Part shown: positions 44,493 through 51,333 of the stretch, piece after piece
How the letters are laid out: each line of letters opens with the position of its first letter
How positions within the stretch are numbered: position 1 is the stretch's first letter
From: Micrococcus endophyticus
Lineage (GTDB): Bacteria; Actinomycetota; Actinomycetes; Actinomycetales; Micrococcaceae
Direction: 5' to 3'
DNA length: 64,000 nucleotides
Assembly: GCF_014205115.1 (NCBI RefSeq)
Contig: NZ_JACHMW010000001.1
Coordinates: 248,001-312,000 of the forward strand
Notes under the pieces: model-generated
What the model saw: only the letters and a program-made list of their open reading frames with translations
Database searches by the model: none
What the model was told of the DNA's origin: nothing
Position numbers and translations under genes: made by a program

Positions 44493-44753
44493 GTGCGCTC
44501 GCCGTGGCTGTGGACCCTCGTGGCCTCGATCGTGCTGCTGGGCATGCTCCACGGCCTGATCCCCGCCATGGCCCTCGGCCTGGCCCGGCAGTCCGCGTTC
44601 TTCCTGTTCCTGCCGCACTACCACCAGGTGGGCGCGGTCATCCCCATGGTCGCCATGCTCTTCATGTCCGCCGGCATGGCCACCGGCACGGTCCAGCCGC
44701 CGCCCGGAACGCCGGGTCGATCGCCGGCCGGTCAGGCGTCCTCGCCGTCCTGA
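44493..44753 (+). CDS. small membrane protein, 86 aa, unknown
   Basis: GTG-started frame with two good hydrophobic helices (WTLVASIVLLGMLHGLIPAM about 8-27 and AVIPMVAMLFMSAGMATG about 48-66) separated by a His-containing loop FLPHYHQV, then a Pro/Ser tail. Codon bias fits the host. Its last 22 bp overlap the 3' end of the convergent sensor-kinase gene. Not recognised; could be spurious. Confidence 0.5.
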   Translation: MRSPWLWTLVASIVLLGMLHGLIPAMALGLARQSAFFLFLPHYHQVGAVIPMVAMLFMSAGMATGTVQPPPGTPGRSPAGQASSPS

Positions 44754-46246
44754 TCGGCCGTCAGCGGCACGGCCAGCCGGGCCACGGTCCCCGCGGCGTC
44801 GGGGCCGGGCTCCAGGGTGAGCTCCCCGTCCAGTGCGGTGCTGAGCAGGGCCGCCACGGGCAGGCCGAGCCCGTTGCCGGGGTACGGGTCGTTCGAGGCG
44901 TTGGCCAGCCGCTCGAACACCTCCTCGCGGTCATCCTCGGGGATGCCGCGGCCCCGGTCGGCGACCTCGACGACGGCCCACGGCTCGCCGTCACGCTCCT
45001 CCTCGCGGACCCGCACGGAGAGCGTGCGCTCCAGCGGGGTCACGGCGGTCAGGTCGCGCGGCAGGTCCGAGCCCGGCGCGAAGCGGACCGCGTACCGGGC
45101 GTTGTCCAGCAGCTCCTCGAGGACCTGCACGAGCCGCGCGCGGTCCGTCACGGCGGTCAGGCCCTCGGCGGGGGCCTCCACGTCCAGGCGCGGCTCGTCC
45201 GCGGCGTCCGGGTGGCGCTCCCGCCACGCCTGGGCCGCCGTGGCCACGAGCACGCCCACGTCCACGGGGGTGCGCTCCAGCACCACGTCGTCCTGCTGGA
45301 GGCGGGAGAGGATCACGAGGTCCTCCAGCAGCCCGCGCACGCGCGTGGCCTCGGCCCCGATGTGCCGGTAGGAGGTGCGCCGCTCCTGCTCGTCCCCGCC
45401 CGGGTTCCGCAGGCCGCCCTCGATCACGGTGAGGGGGGTGCGCAGGGCGAAGGTGACGTCCTCGGCGAAGCGCCGCTCCTCCTCGAGGCGCCGGTCGGCG
45501 CGGCGGACCAGGTCGTTGGCGCGCCGGGCCAGGCCCGCGTACTCCTCGGACCCGTTCTCCGGCAGGCGGCGCAGCCCCCGGTCCTTGAGCGAGGCGTCCA
45601 CCGCCCGGTGGAACTCCACCGTGTGCCCGAGGATGCGGCTGGAGACCAGCCAGGCCGCCGCCGCGGTGGCGGCGAGGGCCGCCAGGGCCAGGGCGGAGAG
45701 CAGCAGCGTCTGGGTCATCACGCGCTGCTCGTTGCGCTCGTGGAAGACGGCGACGACGACGTGCCCGGTGTCCGCCGGCGTGGTGACGGTGAGATTCGCG
45801 TAGGAGATGCGTCCGTGCGTCGGGTCCACGAGGGTGCCGCGGGAGCGGGGCTGCTCCATGGCCTGGCGGGTGGCCGGGGCGAGCAGCTCGACGGGCGCGG
45901 CGGCGTCCCCGTGGATCTGGGCGATCACGGGGGTGGCCGCGGTGCCGCCGAACATCAGCTCGGTGGGCTCCACGCGCTGCCGCTCCAGGTAGTGGCCCAC
46001 GAAGCGCTCGGGGGTGGCGAAGGGCTCGCCGGTCTCGGGGTCGCGCCCGTTCTGGGCGAAGACCGCCACCTCGTCGCTCTCCTGCGTCAGGGACGTCTCG
46101 ATGGCGTCCCGCTCGACCCACCGCAGGGTGAGCACGATAGAGACGAGCATCAGCACCATGCCCAGGGCGGAGACGCCCAGGATCCAGGCGACGACGCGGG
46201 CGCGGCCGGAGGCGCTGAGCCGTCCGGTGGGCTTGCTGCGGGTCAT
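44732..46246 (-). CDS. sensor histidine kinase-like protein lacking the phospho-acceptor His, 504 aa
   Basis: Classic architecture: TM1 (about 19-40), an extracytoplasmic domain of about 140 residues, TM2 (about 181-202), HAMP-like linker, HisKA and HATPase domains. The H box reads RRFAEDVTFALRTPLTVIEG: the usual DxSHELRTPL has Phe (residue 266, codon TTC) in place of His. The ATPase domain looks intact: ELLDNARYAV (N382), DRGRGIPEDD, GNGLGL (457-462). So ATP binding is likely but His autophosphorylation is not. ATGA overlap with the ABC gene upstream; no response regulator adjacent. Could act as a pseudokinase or phosphatase-type regulator. Confidence 0.9.
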   Translation of the reverse strand: MTRSKPTGRLSASGRARVVAWILGVSALGMVLMLVSIVLTLRWVERDAIETSLTQESDEVAVFAQNGRDPETGEPFATPERFVGHYLERQRVEPTELMFGGTAATPVIAQIHGDAAAPVELLAPATRQAMEQPRSRGTLVDPTHGRISYANLTVTTPADTGHVVVAVFHERNEQRVMTQTLLLSALALAALAATAAAAWLVSSRILGHTVEFHRAVDASLKDRGLRRLPENGSEEYAGLARRANDLVRRADRRLEEERRFAEDVTFALRTPLTVIEGGLRNPGGDEQERRTSYRHIGAEATRVRGLLEDLVILSRLQQDDVVLERTPVDVGVLVATAAQAWRERHPDAADEPRLDVEAPAEGLTAVTDRARLVQVLEELLDNARYAVRFAPGSDLPRDLTAVTPLERTLSVRVREEERDGEPWAVVEVADRGRGIPEDDREEVFERLANASNDPYPGNGLGLPVAALLSTALDGELTLEPGPDAAGTVARLAVPLTADQDGEDA

Positions 46247-48045
46247 TCGTCGTCTCCTTCGAGGTCGTCGGCGGACTCGCCGAGGCGCGGGGCGGACGCG
46301 GCCCGGGTGCCGGCCAGCTCCACGGCGGAGTGCCGGACCGGGGGTCCGAACGGGTCCCGGTCCGCGCCGGGGACGTAGGTGGTGGGCCGCTTGCCCTGGA
46401 TGCGGGCGTGCAGCACGGACGGGGCCACCACGAGGGTGGGGGCCAGCTCGTCCACGTTGTAGACCTCGTACCGCTCCAGCAGCTCGTGCGGGGAGGCGCT
46501 GCGCAGGATCACGCAGCCGGGGTAGTCGGCGAGGATGCGGCGCAGGATGGGGCGGTCGCGGGCGTCGAGCTGGTCGTCCACGTGGTCCAGGACCAGCAGG
46601 GGCGGGTTGCCGGCCACGGCGCCGGCGATCTTCAGCAGGGCGCGCTCGTTGATGGACAGGGGCTCGCCGCCGCGCTTGAGGCGGGTGGCGTCCCCCTCGG
46701 GCAGGCGGGCCACGCGCTCGGCCATGCCCACGCGGTCCAGCACCTGCGCCACGGTCTCCGCGGCGCCGCGGTTGCGGTAGCGGACGATCCGGGAGATCGT
46801 GCCGCGCTGCAGCGGCACGTCCCGGGCGGCGACGCCGATCAGCTCGCGGCGGTCCTTGGCGGTCATCGCGTAGAGGTGGCGGCCGGCCACGGTGATCCAC
46901 GCGTCCGAGGCGGGCATGTCCCCGGTGATCTCCCGGGTGACGCGCTCCAGGCGCTCGCGGGAGCCGCCGGTGAGCAGGACGCGGGAGCCGGGGGCGGCCA
47001 CGAGGGAGGGGATCGTCCCCTCGGCGTCCCGCAGGTCCGCCAGGTGCACGGCGTCCCGGGAGAGGCCGCGCGGGTTGCCGTGGTGGCGCATGCGGGTGCG
47101 GGCCCGCTTCTGGCGCTTCTCCCGCCGGGCGTGGCCGCGGGCGTTCTCGATGATGGGCCGCAGCACCCGGCAGGCGGCGTTGTAGTTCTGCCGGTACTCG
47201 CCCACCCGGCCGAGCTCGGTCACGGGGGCGCCGAGCATGCCGGCGATGAACACCGCGGTGGTGATGGCGGCCCCGGTGGAGCCGGCGGCCGAGCCGGTGA
47301 TGGCCACGAGCACGCCCAGCACGGTGGTGATGGAGGCGGCCGAGCCGCGCATGGTCCCGGAGACCACGGCGCGGCGGTGGGCGGCGTCCTGGAGCTGGCC
47401 GGAGATCCGGTCCACCCGGCCCACCTCCCGCTGCACGCCGCCGGCGGTGCGGATCGAGCCCGCGGCCGTCACGGTGTCCGCCACGTACCCGGCCATCTTG
47501 CCGCGCACCCGGCGCACCGCCACGGCGCGTCGGAAGAACACGCGGGAAAGCGCCCACAGGGCGGTGAAGAATACGCCCAGGGTGACCACGACGACGAGCC
47601 CGAGGGTGGGCAGCAGCACGAACAGGCCGATCACGATGCCCACGATCAGCGGCACGCCCACCACGATCGGGCTGATCCCGAGGGCGATCCAGTTCTTCAC
47701 CGCGGTGAGGTCGTTCGTGGTGCGGGCGATCGTGCTGCCCAGGTTGAGCGACTTCTCCGGGACGAGGGCGCTGGTCACCAGCAGCCGACGGGTCTCCCGG
47801 ACGTAGTCCTGGCCCAGGTCCTCGGCGGCGACCCGCTCGAGGATGCGGGCCCCGCCCACGAGTAGGGCGGCCACGAGCAGGGCCGCGGCCAGGCCCCACG
47901 CGCCCGCACCGGCCGTCAGCAGCCGCGGGGTGAGCACGGCCACCGCCACGGACAGCGCAGCCTGCAGCAGGCCGAGGCCGGCGAGCCCCAGCAGCAGCAG
48001 CAGCCTGCGGCGGCCGACGAACAGTGCGGGCATCGAGGGGTTCAC
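46243..48045 (-). CDS. ABC exporter-like protein with degenerate nucleotide-binding domain, 600 aa
   Basis: Full-length type IV exporter half: six membrane helices (residues about 13-275), then an NBD-like domain. Alignment to ABC motifs by eye shows all key residues lost: Walker A position is LTGGSRERLERV (359-368 region, no GxGKS/T), Q-loop lost, signature LSGGQ is LSINE (463-467), Walker B LLVLDH (Asp487 kept, catalytic Glu is His488), switch His region RSASPH. The chain is otherwise long, in frame and with native codon use, so the loss is evolved rather than a fresh mutation. GTG start overlaps the upstream stop (GTGA); it overlaps the kinase-like gene by ATGA. Confidence 0.88.
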   Translation of the reverse strand: MNPSMPALFVGRRRLLLLLGLAGLGLLQAALSVAVAVLTPRLLTAGAGAWGLAAALLVAALLVGGARILERVAAEDLGQDYVRETRRLLVTSALVPEKSLNLGSTIARTTNDLTAVKNWIALGISPIVVGVPLIVGIVIGLFVLLPTLGLVVVVTLGVFFTALWALSRVFFRRAVAVRRVRGKMAGYVADTVTAAGSIRTAGGVQREVGRVDRISGQLQDAAHRRAVVSGTMRGSAASITTVLGVLVAITGSAAGSTGAAITTAVFIAGMLGAPVTELGRVGEYRQNYNAACRVLRPIIENARGHARREKRQKRARTRMRHHGNPRGLSRDAVHLADLRDAEGTIPSLVAAPGSRVLLTGGSRERLERVTREITGDMPASDAWITVAGRHLYAMTAKDRRELIGVAARDVPLQRGTISRIVRYRNRGAAETVAQVLDRVGMAERVARLPEGDATRLKRGGEPLSINERALLKIAGAVAGNPPLLVLDHVDDQLDARDRPILRRILADYPGCVILRSASPHELLERYEVYNVDELAPTLVVAPSVLHARIQGKRPTTYVPGADRDPFGPPVRHSAVELAGTRAASAPRLGESADDLEGDDE

Positions 48046-49244
48046 GCGCCCACGGTCTCCGCGTCCAGGCCGAGCGTGCGCAGGGCCACGTCGGCCTCGC
48101 ACAGGTCGTAGGTGGGGATGACGGGCACGTCCACCACGGCGGAGGCCTCGCGGGCGATCAGCGGGGCGGAGGTGAGCAGGCCGGAGACGGCCACGAGCGG
48201 CAGGCCGGCCCGCTGGAGCAGGCCCACGCCGGCGGCCGCGGAGAGCGCCTCGCCGCAGGCGAAGAGCACCTTGTCCGCGAGCTCGCCGAACTCGGGGTCG
48301 GCCACGAGGGCGGCGGTCTCGCCCTGGTAGATGCCGTCGGCGATCTCGATGACGACGACGTCGGGGTCGCCCTGGGAGAGCACGGAGGTCATGGAGAACA
48401 TGATGTCCTTGGTGCACTCGAAGGACAGCCGGAACGTGGAGGGCAGGCCGAAGTCGGTGAAGTCCACGACCTTCTCGGCGCCGGCGTCGCGGAACAGGCC
48501 GGCGTCGTTGCCCGCGCCCGTGCCGGTCGCCTTTCCGGCGTGGACGGTCAGGCCGGCGTTGACCAGGCCGTTGACGAGGCAGCCCACGGTGGTGGACTTG
48601 CCGGAGTTCATGGAGGAGCCGAAGACGACCACCACGGTGGGGCCGTCCTCGCCCAGGGTCTCGCGGGCCTGCTCCCACGGGGTGATCTCGTGCGGGGCCG
48701 TGTCGGAGAGGGAGACGACCTCGCCGCCGCGGGTGATGAGCCCCAGCGGCTCGAGGACCGTGGCGGGGTCGATGTTCTCGTGCTTCTCGATCACGCGGGA
48801 GGCCATGCCGCCGGCGGCCACGAGGTTCGTGTAGTTCAGGTTGCGGGGGACCTCGGCGAGGAACTGGTCCGGGGCGTAGCGGTCGCCGTAGGCCACGATC
48901 ACCTCGTCACCCATGAAGAGGTTGCGGCGGCGGGAGTTGTAGGACTCGAGCCGCTTGTGCTGGCCGATCGTCGCGATGCGGGCCAGGACCAGGTCGCCGG
49001 CCTTCGGGGTGACGCCGCGGCCGCGACGCAGGCCGTAGCCCTGGTGCTCCTCGCCGCGGGCCCGCTGGCGGAACGCCCGGGCGGTGTACGAGGTCTTGGC
49101 CCGGCGCAGGCGGCGGGGGCTGAGCTCCACGTCCTCCACGCCGTCCACGGAGTGGCCCTCGGCGGGGTGGTCGGAGAGGTGGCGGTACTTCTTCTCCAGC
49201 TCGAAGCTGAGCGAGGCGATCAGGTCGGCGGTCTCGGTCTGCAT
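48042..49244 (-). CDS. P-loop protein resembling DUF1611 family, 400 aa
   Basis: First gene of the three-gene unit. N-terminal 150 residues are basic and novel (SPRRLRRAKTSYTARAFRQR, ESYNSRRRNLFMGDEVIVAY). The second half has an intact P-loop VVVVFGSSMNSGKSTT (GSSMNSGKSTT at 209-219), a switch-like VHAGKATGTGAGNDAGLFRD and Walker-B-like DVVVIEIADGIYQGETAALV, like DUF1611/SIMIBI-class NTPases. Reaction unknown. AGGAGAG before ATG. Because it is the only member with an intact nucleotide site, it may supply the energy or signal for the partner proteins. Confidence 0.78.
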   Translation of the reverse strand: MQTETADLIASLSFELEKKYRHLSDHPAEGHSVDGVEDVELSPRRLRRAKTSYTARAFRQRARGEEHQGYGLRRGRGVTPKAGDLVLARIATIGQHKRLESYNSRRRNLFMGDEVIVAYGDRYAPDQFLAEVPRNLNYTNLVAAGGMASRVIEKHENIDPATVLEPLGLITRGGEVVSLSDTAPHEITPWEQARETLGEDGPTVVVVFGSSMNSGKSTTVGCLVNGLVNAGLTVHAGKATGTGAGNDAGLFRDAGAEKVVDFTDFGLPSTFRLSFECTKDIMFSMTSVLSQGDPDVVVIEIADGIYQGETAALVADPEFGELADKVLFACGEALSAAAGVGLLQRAGLPLVAVSGLLTSAPLIAREASAVVDVPVIPTYDLCEADVALRTLGLDAETVGA

Positions 49245-49456: not shown

Positions 49457-51193
49457 TCACTTGGCGTCCGCGTAGGAGTCCAGGGACGCCACGGTGAGCG
49501 GGAAGTCCACGGGGGCGGCGCCGAACAGCAGGCGGCCGGCGGCGCTCGCGGCCTCGGCGACGACGCCGCGCACCGCCTCCGCCTCCGGCGCCGGGCCGTG
49601 GAGCACCACCTCGTCGTGCACGAAGAACACCAGCTCGGTCCGCAGCCCGGCCGCACGCAGGCGACGGCGGATCTCGCCCATCCAGCACAGCGCCCACTCG
49701 GCCGCGGTGCCCTGCACCACGAAGTTGCGGGTGAAGCGCCCCTGCGAGCGCCGCCGTCGCCGGGCCGCGGACTCCGCGGCCTGGGTGCCGACGTCCGCCA
49801 CGGAGTCCAGCCACGCCTGCTCGGGGGCGGGGGACCAGCGGCCCAGCCAGGTGGCCACCTGCCCGCCGGCCTCACCCACCGAGGCGGCCCGCTCGAGCAG
49901 GCCGATCGCCCGCGGGTAGAGCCGGCGCAGGTGAGGCATGAGGGCGGCGGAGTCGCCGGTGGTGGAGCCGTACATGGCTCCGAGCAGGGCCACCTTGGCC
50001 CGGCCGCGGTCGGCCAGCGCGGTGCCGGCGGCGCGGCCCTGCTCGGCGACCTCGCGGTACAGGTCCGGCGTCGTGCCGGCGCGGGCGAGGGCCTCGTCGG
50101 CGGCCATGGCGGCGAGGATGCGCGGCTCCACCTGGGAGGCGTCCGCCACGGTGAGCAGCCAGCCGGGGTCTGCGCGGACGGCGTCGCGCACCCCGGCCGG
50201 GATCTGCATGGCCCCACCCCCGTGGGCGGCCCACCGCCCGGTCACCACGCCGCCGACCAGATAGGCGGCGTGGAACCGGCCGTCGTCGCCGATCCACTGG
50301 TCCAGCCAGTGCCAGCCGTTGGCCGTCCACAGCCGGGCCAGGGCCTTGTACTCCAGCAGCGGCGCGAGCAGCGCGGCCCGCGCCTCGCGTTCCGTGCCGC
50401 CGGCATCGATCCAGTGCTTCAGGTCCCACTGCCGCGTGGACTCCACAGCCACGCCCGCCGTCTGCAGTGCCCGCAGCAGGCTCGGCTGCGAGTCGGGGCT
50501 CAGCCCGGGGGAGCCCAGGACGTCGGCGATGCGCTCGGCCAGGGCCTGCAGGCGGGCGGGGCGCTCGCCCTGTGCAGGCCGGGGGCCGAGCTGCTCGGTG
50601 AGGAGCGCCTCGTGCACGCCCCGGTCCCATGGCAGACCCGCCGCCCGGATCTCCGCGGCCACGAGTGCACCCTGCGACTCCGCCGCCGCGAGCAGCCGCA
50701 GCCGGTGCGGGTGGGCCGAACCCTCGACGGCGGCCCGCTGCGCGGCCAGCTCGGACGCGAGCACGGTGACGTCCGGGGCGGAGCCGGTCCCGTCCGGCAG
50801 GTCGAAGAAGGACTCCTGACCGGCGGGCACCCGCGCGGGGCGCTCGGGCTCCGTCGGGTCGGCGACCTCGAGCTGCGCCACGGGCGTGTAACGCACCCCG
50901 CTGCCCGGCGCCGTCGCCGCGTGCCGCAGGATCCGCTGGACGAGGGCCACGTCCCAGCACCGATCCACCCGCACCCCCGCCGCCAGCCAGGCGGCATACT
51001 CCGTCCCGACGTCGGCGAGCACCCAGCGGACCGTGCTCGGGTCCACGCCCAAGCGGGCGGGCAGACCGGCCACGAGGCCGGCCACGGACCCGGCGGGGCA
51101 GGATCCCAGGGGGGTGGCGTCGTCCCCGTCCACGGCCCACCAGGCGCCTGGGCTGCCGACGGAGGCGGGGGCGGGGCCCAGGACGACGAACAT
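49457..51193 (-). CDS. bifunctional 3'-5' exonuclease/DNA polymerase-like protein (family A), 578 aa
   Basis: Actinobacterial short PolA-like enzyme. Polymerase motifs: A VADASQVEPRILAAMAADEA with the catalytic Asp, the O-helix region KVALLGAMYGSTTGDSAALM, and C FFVHDEVVLHG with HDE. The N-terminal about 200 residues correspond to a divergent exonuclease region (WVLADVGTEYAAWLAAGVRV). No 5' nuclease domain. Likely used in repair. ATG 51193 is chosen over 51202 because CAGAAT (51206-51201) is 7 nt upstream. Confidence 0.88.
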   Translation of the reverse strand: MFVVLGPAPASVGSPGAWWAVDGDDATPLGSCPAGSVAGLVAGLPARLGVDPSTVRWVLADVGTEYAAWLAAGVRVDRCWDVALVQRILRHAATAPGSGVRYTPVAQLEVADPTEPERPARVPAGQESFFDLPDGTGSAPDVTVLASELAAQRAAVEGSAHPHRLRLLAAAESQGALVAAEIRAAGLPWDRGVHEALLTEQLGPRPAQGERPARLQALAERIADVLGSPGLSPDSQPSLLRALQTAGVAVESTRQWDLKHWIDAGGTEREARAALLAPLLEYKALARLWTANGWHWLDQWIGDDGRFHAAYLVGGVVTGRWAAHGGGAMQIPAGVRDAVRADPGWLLTVADASQVEPRILAAMAADEALARAGTTPDLYREVAEQGRAAGTALADRGRAKVALLGAMYGSTTGDSAALMPHLRRLYPRAIGLLERAASVGEAGGQVATWLGRWSPAPEQAWLDSVADVGTQAAESAARRRRRSQGRFTRNFVVQGTAAEWALCWMGEIRRRLRAAGLRTELVFFVHDEVVLHGPAPEAEAVRGVVAEAASAAGRLLFGAAPVDFPLTVASLDSYADAK

Positions 51194-51333
51194 GTCCCTC
51201 ATTCTGCCCCGTGGCCGGGCCATGGGCGGGGCGAGGGGCTGTGCCACTTGCACGCCCGCCGAGCGAAGAACACACTGGGCGGACGCACCGGCGCGCAGCG
51301 GGCCGTCGGGCGCCACCCAAGAGAGGACCCACC

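Follow-up and report, generated by a model that had tools for sequence, protein, structure and literature searches.

A conserved actinobacterial gene pair, encoding a P-loop protein and a protein with the fold of an ATP-binding cassette (ABC) exporter that is ATPase-dead by sequence, lies in a 64,000-nucleotide stretch of the Micrococcus endophyticus genome (the window: positions 248,001 to 312,000, forward strand, of contig NZ_JACHMW010000001.1, assembly GCF_014205115.1; the source genome comprises 2.71 Mb in one contig). Here the pair is followed by a third gene, for a sensor-kinase-like protein without the phospho-acceptor His. The pair is conserved more widely than an earlier reading of the window alone (the original prediction) could tell. 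As judged from the sequences, its hallmarks are the pairing itself, one main loss of the ATPase, constraint on the dead domain, and an association with an HTTM protein, a protein here labelled PMFS and a canonical two-component system. Tentatively, we take the pair to be an actinobacterial accessory module in which the dead ABC protein would now serve as an ATP-free membrane receptor or scaffold for a P-loop protein resembling DUF1611 proteins and dethiobiotin synthetase. All three genes are on the minus strand (44732-49244), with open frames, and are transcribed in the order P-loop, ABC-like, kinase-like, exactly as first proposed:

48042..49244, minus strand: gene for a SIMIBI-class P-loop protein, 400 aa (open frame)
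46243..48033, minus strand: gene for the ABC-exporter-fold protein, ATPase-dead by sequence, 596 aa from ATG 48033 (frame, Pfam, fold)
44732..46246, minus strand: sensor-kinase-like gene, 504 aa, with a HATPase domain and without the phospho-acceptor His (frame, Pfam, alignment)
48042..48045, minus strand: GTGA overlap of the P-loop stop and a possible ABC start (read in the sequence)
46243..46246, minus strand: ATGA overlap of the ABC stop and the kinase start (read in the sequence)

Both predicted overlaps are thus present, with the qualification that the ABC gene has two candidate starts, GTG 48045 and ATG 48033, of which the ATG may be the true one, as close relatives begin at the MPALF position. 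As to the claimed host codon style, GC content at third codon positions is 0.978-0.990 in the three genes, against 0.918-0.980 in the four neighbour genes computed.

The model of the ABC-like protein matches solved ABC transporters nearly end to end. Its AlphaFold model (mean predicted local distance difference test score, pLDDT, 85.5) contains an exporter-type membrane domain and a C-terminal nucleotide-binding domain fold, and the 50 Foldseek matches listed are all ABC transporters, aligned near full length with template modelling scores by query of 0.57-0.71. The Pfam scores fall below both ABC-domain cut-offs (25.9 vs 28; 19.7 vs 25) and the best NCBIfam match, CydC, reaches 83.6 bits, far below its cut-off of 329. 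A Walker A of the form GxxGxGK(S/T), an LSGGQ signature and a Glu after Walker B are all missing from the window protein, which bears out the claim that it is catalytically dead by sequence:

46945..46968, minus strand: degenerate Walker A, GGSRERLE, ABC residues 356-363 (Lys in 0/79 full-length members)
46645..46659, minus strand: degenerate ABC signature, LSINE, residues 459-463 (signature Gly in 3/79)
46582..46599, minus strand: degenerate Walker B, LLVLDH, residues 479-484, with His at the position of the catalytic Glu (Glu in 5/79)
46498..46515, minus strand: H-loop position without His, CVILRS, residues 507-512 (read by eye where the alignment is unreliable)

These counts refer to a close set of 79 full-length proteins, scored with eight intact exporters as yardsticks. 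The set consists of the window protein, 74 of 80 loci from GTDB (the best 80 of the 143 stretches found to encode relatives) and four more genomes; it leaves out the fragments L128, L139, L150 and L156 and the ABC-less loci L088, L097 and L084 (L numbers denote loci, G numbers genomes). Walker A is gone in all 79, the Q-loop Gln is found in none, and no protein has the signature Gly and the catalytic Glu together. Scaffold positions are near-invariant: the Gly before the signature (79/79), a Pro (77/79) and the Pro before Walker B (79/79). Exporters of the ABC type in which one site is degenerate are familiar, some of them heterodimers, and the best fold matches of the model include TmrAB and MsRv1273c/72c; the protein might accordingly be half of a pair with an ABC protein encoded elsewhere. 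We regard this as very unlikely. With Walker A and Q-loop lost in 79/79, and signature Gly and catalytic Glu each lost in at least 74, both composite sites of such a heterodimer would be spoiled. Moreover, of 90 loci only 6 have another ABC-ATPase-like open reading frame (ORF) at a distance of 10 kb or less, and 2 at 4 kb or less; all these ORFs except one are shorter than 400 aa.

The search for homologues in other Actinobacteria, which the original prediction had put forward as a check, showed the order P-loop then ABC to be conserved. Among 85 loci (the 80 from GTDB and five more genomes), 82 have the ABC gene downstream of, and on the same strand as, the P-loop gene, with a median gap of 17.5 nt; the exceptions are L088, L097 (at a contig end) and L084 (G053). 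The 80 GTDB loci span 12 named families, and dead ABC proteins were found in 22 named genera ([Zimmermannella] included) and in three further lineages of metagenome-assembled genomes (MAGs). The family is nevertheless patchy, with 14 of 297 order-level and 15 of 396 phylum-level genomes positive, the source genome counted in both, and this suggests gene loss and transfer. The P-loop profile over 59 relatives leaves out G056, where the match (E 1.1e-4) covers 90 aa. Among the top-ranked matches for broad queries of the open-access literature, no description of a P-loop and dead-ABC pair was found.

Deeper relatives reveal where the dead ABC protein probably came from. In a wider set of 109 loci, all with the P-loop gene and 97 with an ABC gene, Walker A is present in eight ABC proteins (L195, L196, L197, L198, L200, L201, L210 and L211) and absent from 89, the latter including a few fragments and at least one repeated genome. 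By pattern, L196, L197, L198, L200 and L201 have Walker A, signature and Walker B intact, whereas L195 has retained Walker A but shows LLDQ and lacks the H-loop His; the ABC protein of L202 is degenerate. Absence of Walker A throughout the family, at one stage a candidate rule, holds only in the closest set, and the expected conservation of the lost motifs stands for close homologues but not for these deeper ones. In a tree of 60 P-loop proteins (the window and 59 of the 109 loci; support by the Shimodaira-Hasegawa-like approximate likelihood ratio test, SH-aLRT, a quick method, with no bootstrap), 44 of the 45 rows with a dead ABC partner fall in one clade (SH-aLRT 99), L202 being the remaining row, while rows with an intact ABC and rows without an ABC fall outside it. 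Two changes of state are enough to explain the distribution of live and dead ABCs, and the deep order of the tree, with the long branches L198, L199, L201 and L202, is unsure. One main loss is the simplest reading of this pattern: the ATPase probably died once, in the ancestor of the clade, and the shell has been kept since.

Could the ABC and kinase genes simply be turning into pseudogenes? For the ABC gene the frames are open and constraint is seen in 22 named genera after the one main loss. Between the window and G010, the ratio of nonsynonymous to synonymous differences per site (pN/pS) is about 0.40 for the P-loop gene, 0.37 for the ABC membrane domain and 0.51 for the dead ABC domain, values that point to continued constraint on the latter. 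Row set A4 used 56 rows, with L100, L104, L151, L163, others with stops and near-duplicates left out. What speaks for decay comes from G008, where the P-loop and ABC genes are missing, and from the kinase, discussed below; taken over both genes, decay seems to us a most improbable account, with the kinase by itself a possible case.

The partner of the dead ABC protein has a SIMIBI P-loop fold and an intact Walker A:

48591..48620, minus strand: Walker A, GSSMNSGKST, residues 209-218 of the P-loop protein

G209, M212, N213 and K216 are invariant across 68 sequences. The model consists of a beta-rich N-terminal domain (about residues 66-172) and a P-loop domain (197-399); the fold search covered mainly the latter and matched DUF1611 structures, with dethiobiotin synthetase and CTP synthase, enzymes that act on small molecules, also among the best-matching folds. 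The description of this protein as DUF1611-like was weakly right: the fold matches agree with it, as do weak DUF1611 Pfam matches in 54 of 68 family members (best 2.3e-5, threshold 0.5), but the window protein itself has no Pfam match at E 1, DUF1611 included. It is probably an ATP-dependent enzyme or sensor of the DUF1611/dethiobiotin-synthetase type. The most distant P-loop relatives, L188-L194, are without an ABC neighbour; in L190, L192, L193 and L194 what we take to be a peptidase gene (M20-type) immediately precedes the P-loop gene. At L199:5356-10818 (G087), the distant relative stands beside two presumed ATP-grasp-like genes, a phosphoenolpyruvate (PEP)-mutase-like gene and a decarboxylase-like gene, again named by presumption, a cluster that could represent a phosphonate-type pathway. 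The P-loop gene of L198, a deep relative whose ABC is intact, is preceded by a presumed D-aminopeptidase gene (DppA-type; L198:7179-8018).

The original prediction had the P-loop protein supply the NTPase activity, and such an outsourced ATPase could drive or gate the dead exporter. The pairing, tight and near-universal, is in keeping with this idea, and so is the fact that the protein paired with an ATPase-dead membrane protein has an invariant Walker A Lys. Moreover, the P-loop ends in GKS in 87 of the 89 dead-ABC loci and in GKT beside the eight Walker-A-intact ABCs, so that the partner changed alongside the ABC protein, as a take-over would predict. Yet the same P-loop family is already paired with Walker-A-keeping ABCs in those 8 of 97 loci; the P-loop protein was thus not recruited after ATPase loss, and its role as a replacement is unsupported, although a later take-over is possible. 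Given also that the best folds include small-molecule enzymes, we consider the outsourced ATPase improbable.

Two further proteins are associated with the pair. The first is the HTTM protein: at a limit of E 5, 4 of 10 members of its family match PF05090, the best at 1e-9. The second, PMFS, is probably membrane-bound, carries the invariant motif FPxSxYPMF and is without a convincing Pfam family. An SdpA-like label for PMFS was dropped, as there was no such NCBIfam match. Of the 80 GTDB loci, 7 carry both genes in cis, as do G010, G011 and two deep genomes: L196, with an intact ABC, and L195, with a partly intact one. In M. endophyticus they are paired at about 320.5-322.4 kb, 25 kb from the unit. 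Close HTTM relatives occur in 9 of 59 relatives, eight of which have the P-loop gene, the exception being G008; weak matches in G049 and G056 are left out of this profile. The competence loci of Micrococcus luteus were considered as a possible counterpart and set aside: the genes there, as far as the accessible part of the source describes them, are tad, FtsK-like and a two-component pair (PMC8467076).

These associations raise the possibility that the locus is a biosynthesis cassette, in which the P-loop enzyme together with HTTM and PMFS would produce or alter a peptide or a compound of the envelope, with the ABC protein as a former exporter turned assembly platform. The deep locus L195, where P-loop, ABC, PMFS and HTTM genes are joined by an esterase-like one (it scores 46.3 bits against a depolymerase family, below the cut-off of 150), fits such a cassette, as do the distant P-loop relatives near presumed peptidase-like genes or presumed ATP-grasp-like and PEP-mutase-like genes. 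So does a linaridin cluster in which HTTM, alpha/beta hydrolase and ABC genes are reportedly grouped (PMC9927463). Set against this is the lack of HTTM in 5 of the 13 P-loop genomes among the relatives, and we judge the cassette possible, if rather unlikely.

A canonical sensor kinase (HK21) with its response regulator is the other recurrent companion. No response regulator gene was detected by tblastn in window positions 34001-60000, but the prediction that the system goes without one is not supported, as HK21 and its regulator are near the unit in several relatives: within about 5 kb in G010, G003/L164, G011, L084, L087, L111 and L158, and within 9 kb in L137 and L155. In M. endophyticus, HK21 is at 231.9-233.4 kb and the regulator (82% identity) at about 231.2-231.9 kb, some 60 kb from the unit. 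Its H-box reads GHELRTP or GHEMRTP in the 12 rows read. HK21 is present at E < 1e-80, a line set after the scores were known (the search's own limit was 1e-45), in 13 of 13 P-loop genomes and in 13 of 46 others, one of which, G008, has only half a gene. In 16 further loci among L098-L139 (Arthrobacter, Glutamicibacter, Paeniglutamicibacter), a different, lower-scoring kinase (98-124 bits) and a regulator are encoded 4-7 kb upstream of the P-loop gene. Between HK21 and the P-loop gene of G010 lies an ORF (L071:6480-7076) whose product is rich in Ser and Pro, hydrophobic at its start and very acidic in its tail, and which possibly belongs to the sensor operon; an ORF of similar length is at the same place in L072 (11788-12456).

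The pair is older than the trio, the kinase being a later add-on in one sub-clade. In 8 of the 86 loci compared, the window included, the kinase gene is the next one after the ABC gene (window, L085, L086, L087, L089, L090, L164 and L071; L085 is a fragment at a contig end), and those present in the P-loop tree form one sub-clade (support 100) spanning three families. The HATPase domain scores above its Pfam cut-off (59.9 vs 26.4), with N, G1 and G2 boxes seen by eye; HisKA, at 18.6, is below its cut-off of 26.9. The lack of the H-box His is confirmed:

45449..45451, minus strand: codon for Phe266, in place of the phospho-acceptor His, in DVTFALRTPL (H-box reading)

Phe stands in its place in the window, G009 and L086, and Leu in G010, G003 and G008; the genomes without the His belong to Micrococcus, apart from one Actinomycetaceae MAG. 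Three relatives still have the His: L087 (DLLHELTTP), L089 (DLTHELRTP; a Propionibacteriaceae MAG) and L090 (NMVHIIRTP), the lineages besides that MAG being Actinobaculum and Tessaracoccus. In the kinase tree (L072, L075, L089 and L155 left out), L090 and L087 fall outside the group of L086 and Micrococcus, which is consistent with a single loss of the His. HK21 was rejected as the direct parent: the His-less kinases and their His-bearing kin form one clade (100) that is not specifically sister to the neighbouring HK21, so that only distant kinship is claimed.

The kinase is the least constrained part of the unit in the full-length comparison of the window with G010 (51% identical, pN/pS 0.80; HK21, 67% identical, pN/pS 0.52), as decay would have it, and the kinase of the Propionibacteriaceae MAG (L089:4063-4977) keeps its His but is missing nearly the whole ATPase domain in frame, a gap that may be real or an assembly effect. 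Against decay, the C-terminal part alone, compared between the window and G009, is constrained (pN/pS 0.50). In G008, a genome of the same genus (L075:7228-8877), where the P-loop and ABC genes are gone, truncated C-terminal halves of HK21 and of the His-less kinase abut head to head, a junction that looks like a deletion scar. Intact forms of the lost residues, which the original prediction had named as evidence against itself, thus exist both in deeper relatives (Walker A of the ABC protein) and in sister lineages (His of the kinase), but the P-loop and ABC genes have stayed linked. The idea that the three genes encode one evolved complex is not supported, since the kinase is confined to a single sub-clade, evolves faster (between the window and G010) and has kept its His in three relatives.

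How might the module work? We propose that the ABC-exporter-fold protein started as a working exporter, lost its ATPase in the ancestor of the clade, and would now hold the P-loop protein at the membrane, as a receptor or scaffold that needs no ATP, possibly while binding the small-molecule or peptide ligand of the module. The HTTM pair, where present, would act nearby, and HK21 and its regulator may read the state of the envelope or of the ligand. In the Micrococcus sub-clade, an extra sensor kinase would have joined the operon and afterwards lost its His, to become most likely an ATP-binding partner or decoy modulating the canonical kinase, or else a drifting gene. Modulation of HK21 could occur through heterodimerisation, for which the ChrS pseudokinase offers a reported precedent (PMC9491836). 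A bolder version, which we hold to be quite doubtful, combines these steps: the dead shell, with its SIMIBI partner instead of an ATPase, would be a ligand receptor or gated conduit set by the P-loop protein, and its state would be reported in Micrococcus by the His-less kinase heterodimerised with the canonical one.

Several observations weigh against the module as we tentatively propose it. A close P-loop relative, L088 (65% identical), has no ABC gene in its flanks, and no kinase gene either. The catalytic Glu is retained in five of the 79 close ABC proteins (L076, L100, L102, L104 and L108). HTTM is in cis in only the 7 of 80 GTDB loci, and 5 of the 13 relatives with the P-loop gene lack it altogether. 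HK21 is also common in genomes without the module (at E 1e-45, 13/13 vs 16/46), and the hypergeometric values for the co-occurrence profiles ignore shared ancestry. Finally, the SIMIBI class also holds mechanical ATPases, so that an enzymatic role for the P-loop protein is an inference.

Upstream of the trio, at window positions 49457-51316, is a gene that we take to encode a family A DNA polymerase; a relative of it lies near the unit in G009 (L073), and none was seen in the stretches of G003 and G010 that were analysed.

In any event, the ABC protein is a bacterial exporter-type protein with both sites dead, found in 22 named genera with one fixed soluble partner, and it has living relatives that keep ATP-site motifs. 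Dead and intact forms together make a natural before-and-after series of an ABC fold without ATP. They also define a testable partner network of P-loop, HTTM and PMFS proteins and a two-component pair, with roles unassigned so far.

The window ABC protein shares its full-length fold with exporters of the MsbA/CydC/TmrAB type, but it lacks Walker A, the Q-loop Gln, the signature and the catalytic Glu, so that both sites are dead and not one. The P-loop protein differs from DUF1611 proteins, dethiobiotin synthetase and DgcN in having no Pfam match, in the beta-rich N-terminal domain of its model and in its constant neighbour gene, which encodes a membrane protein. The Sdp operon can be counted among the HTTM-containing peptide clusters. 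Such clusters, linaridins in particular, reportedly resemble the present system in having an HTTM protein near an ABC gene (PMC9927463); here, in contrast, a P-loop protein and a dead ABC take the place of an active exporter, and in M. endophyticus HTTM is not in cis. DivL is reportedly a pseudo-histidine kinase, and the His-less kinase is like it, and like ChrS, in being a sensor kinase unable to phosphorylate itself. Unlike both, its gene is in an operon with that of an ABC protein. The route to inactivity also differs: here the His became Phe or Leu and the ATPase domain was kept, whereas ChrS of C. glutamicum is reported to have been left without a functional ATPase domain by laboratory evolution and to form heterodimers with a paralogous kinase (PMC9491836).

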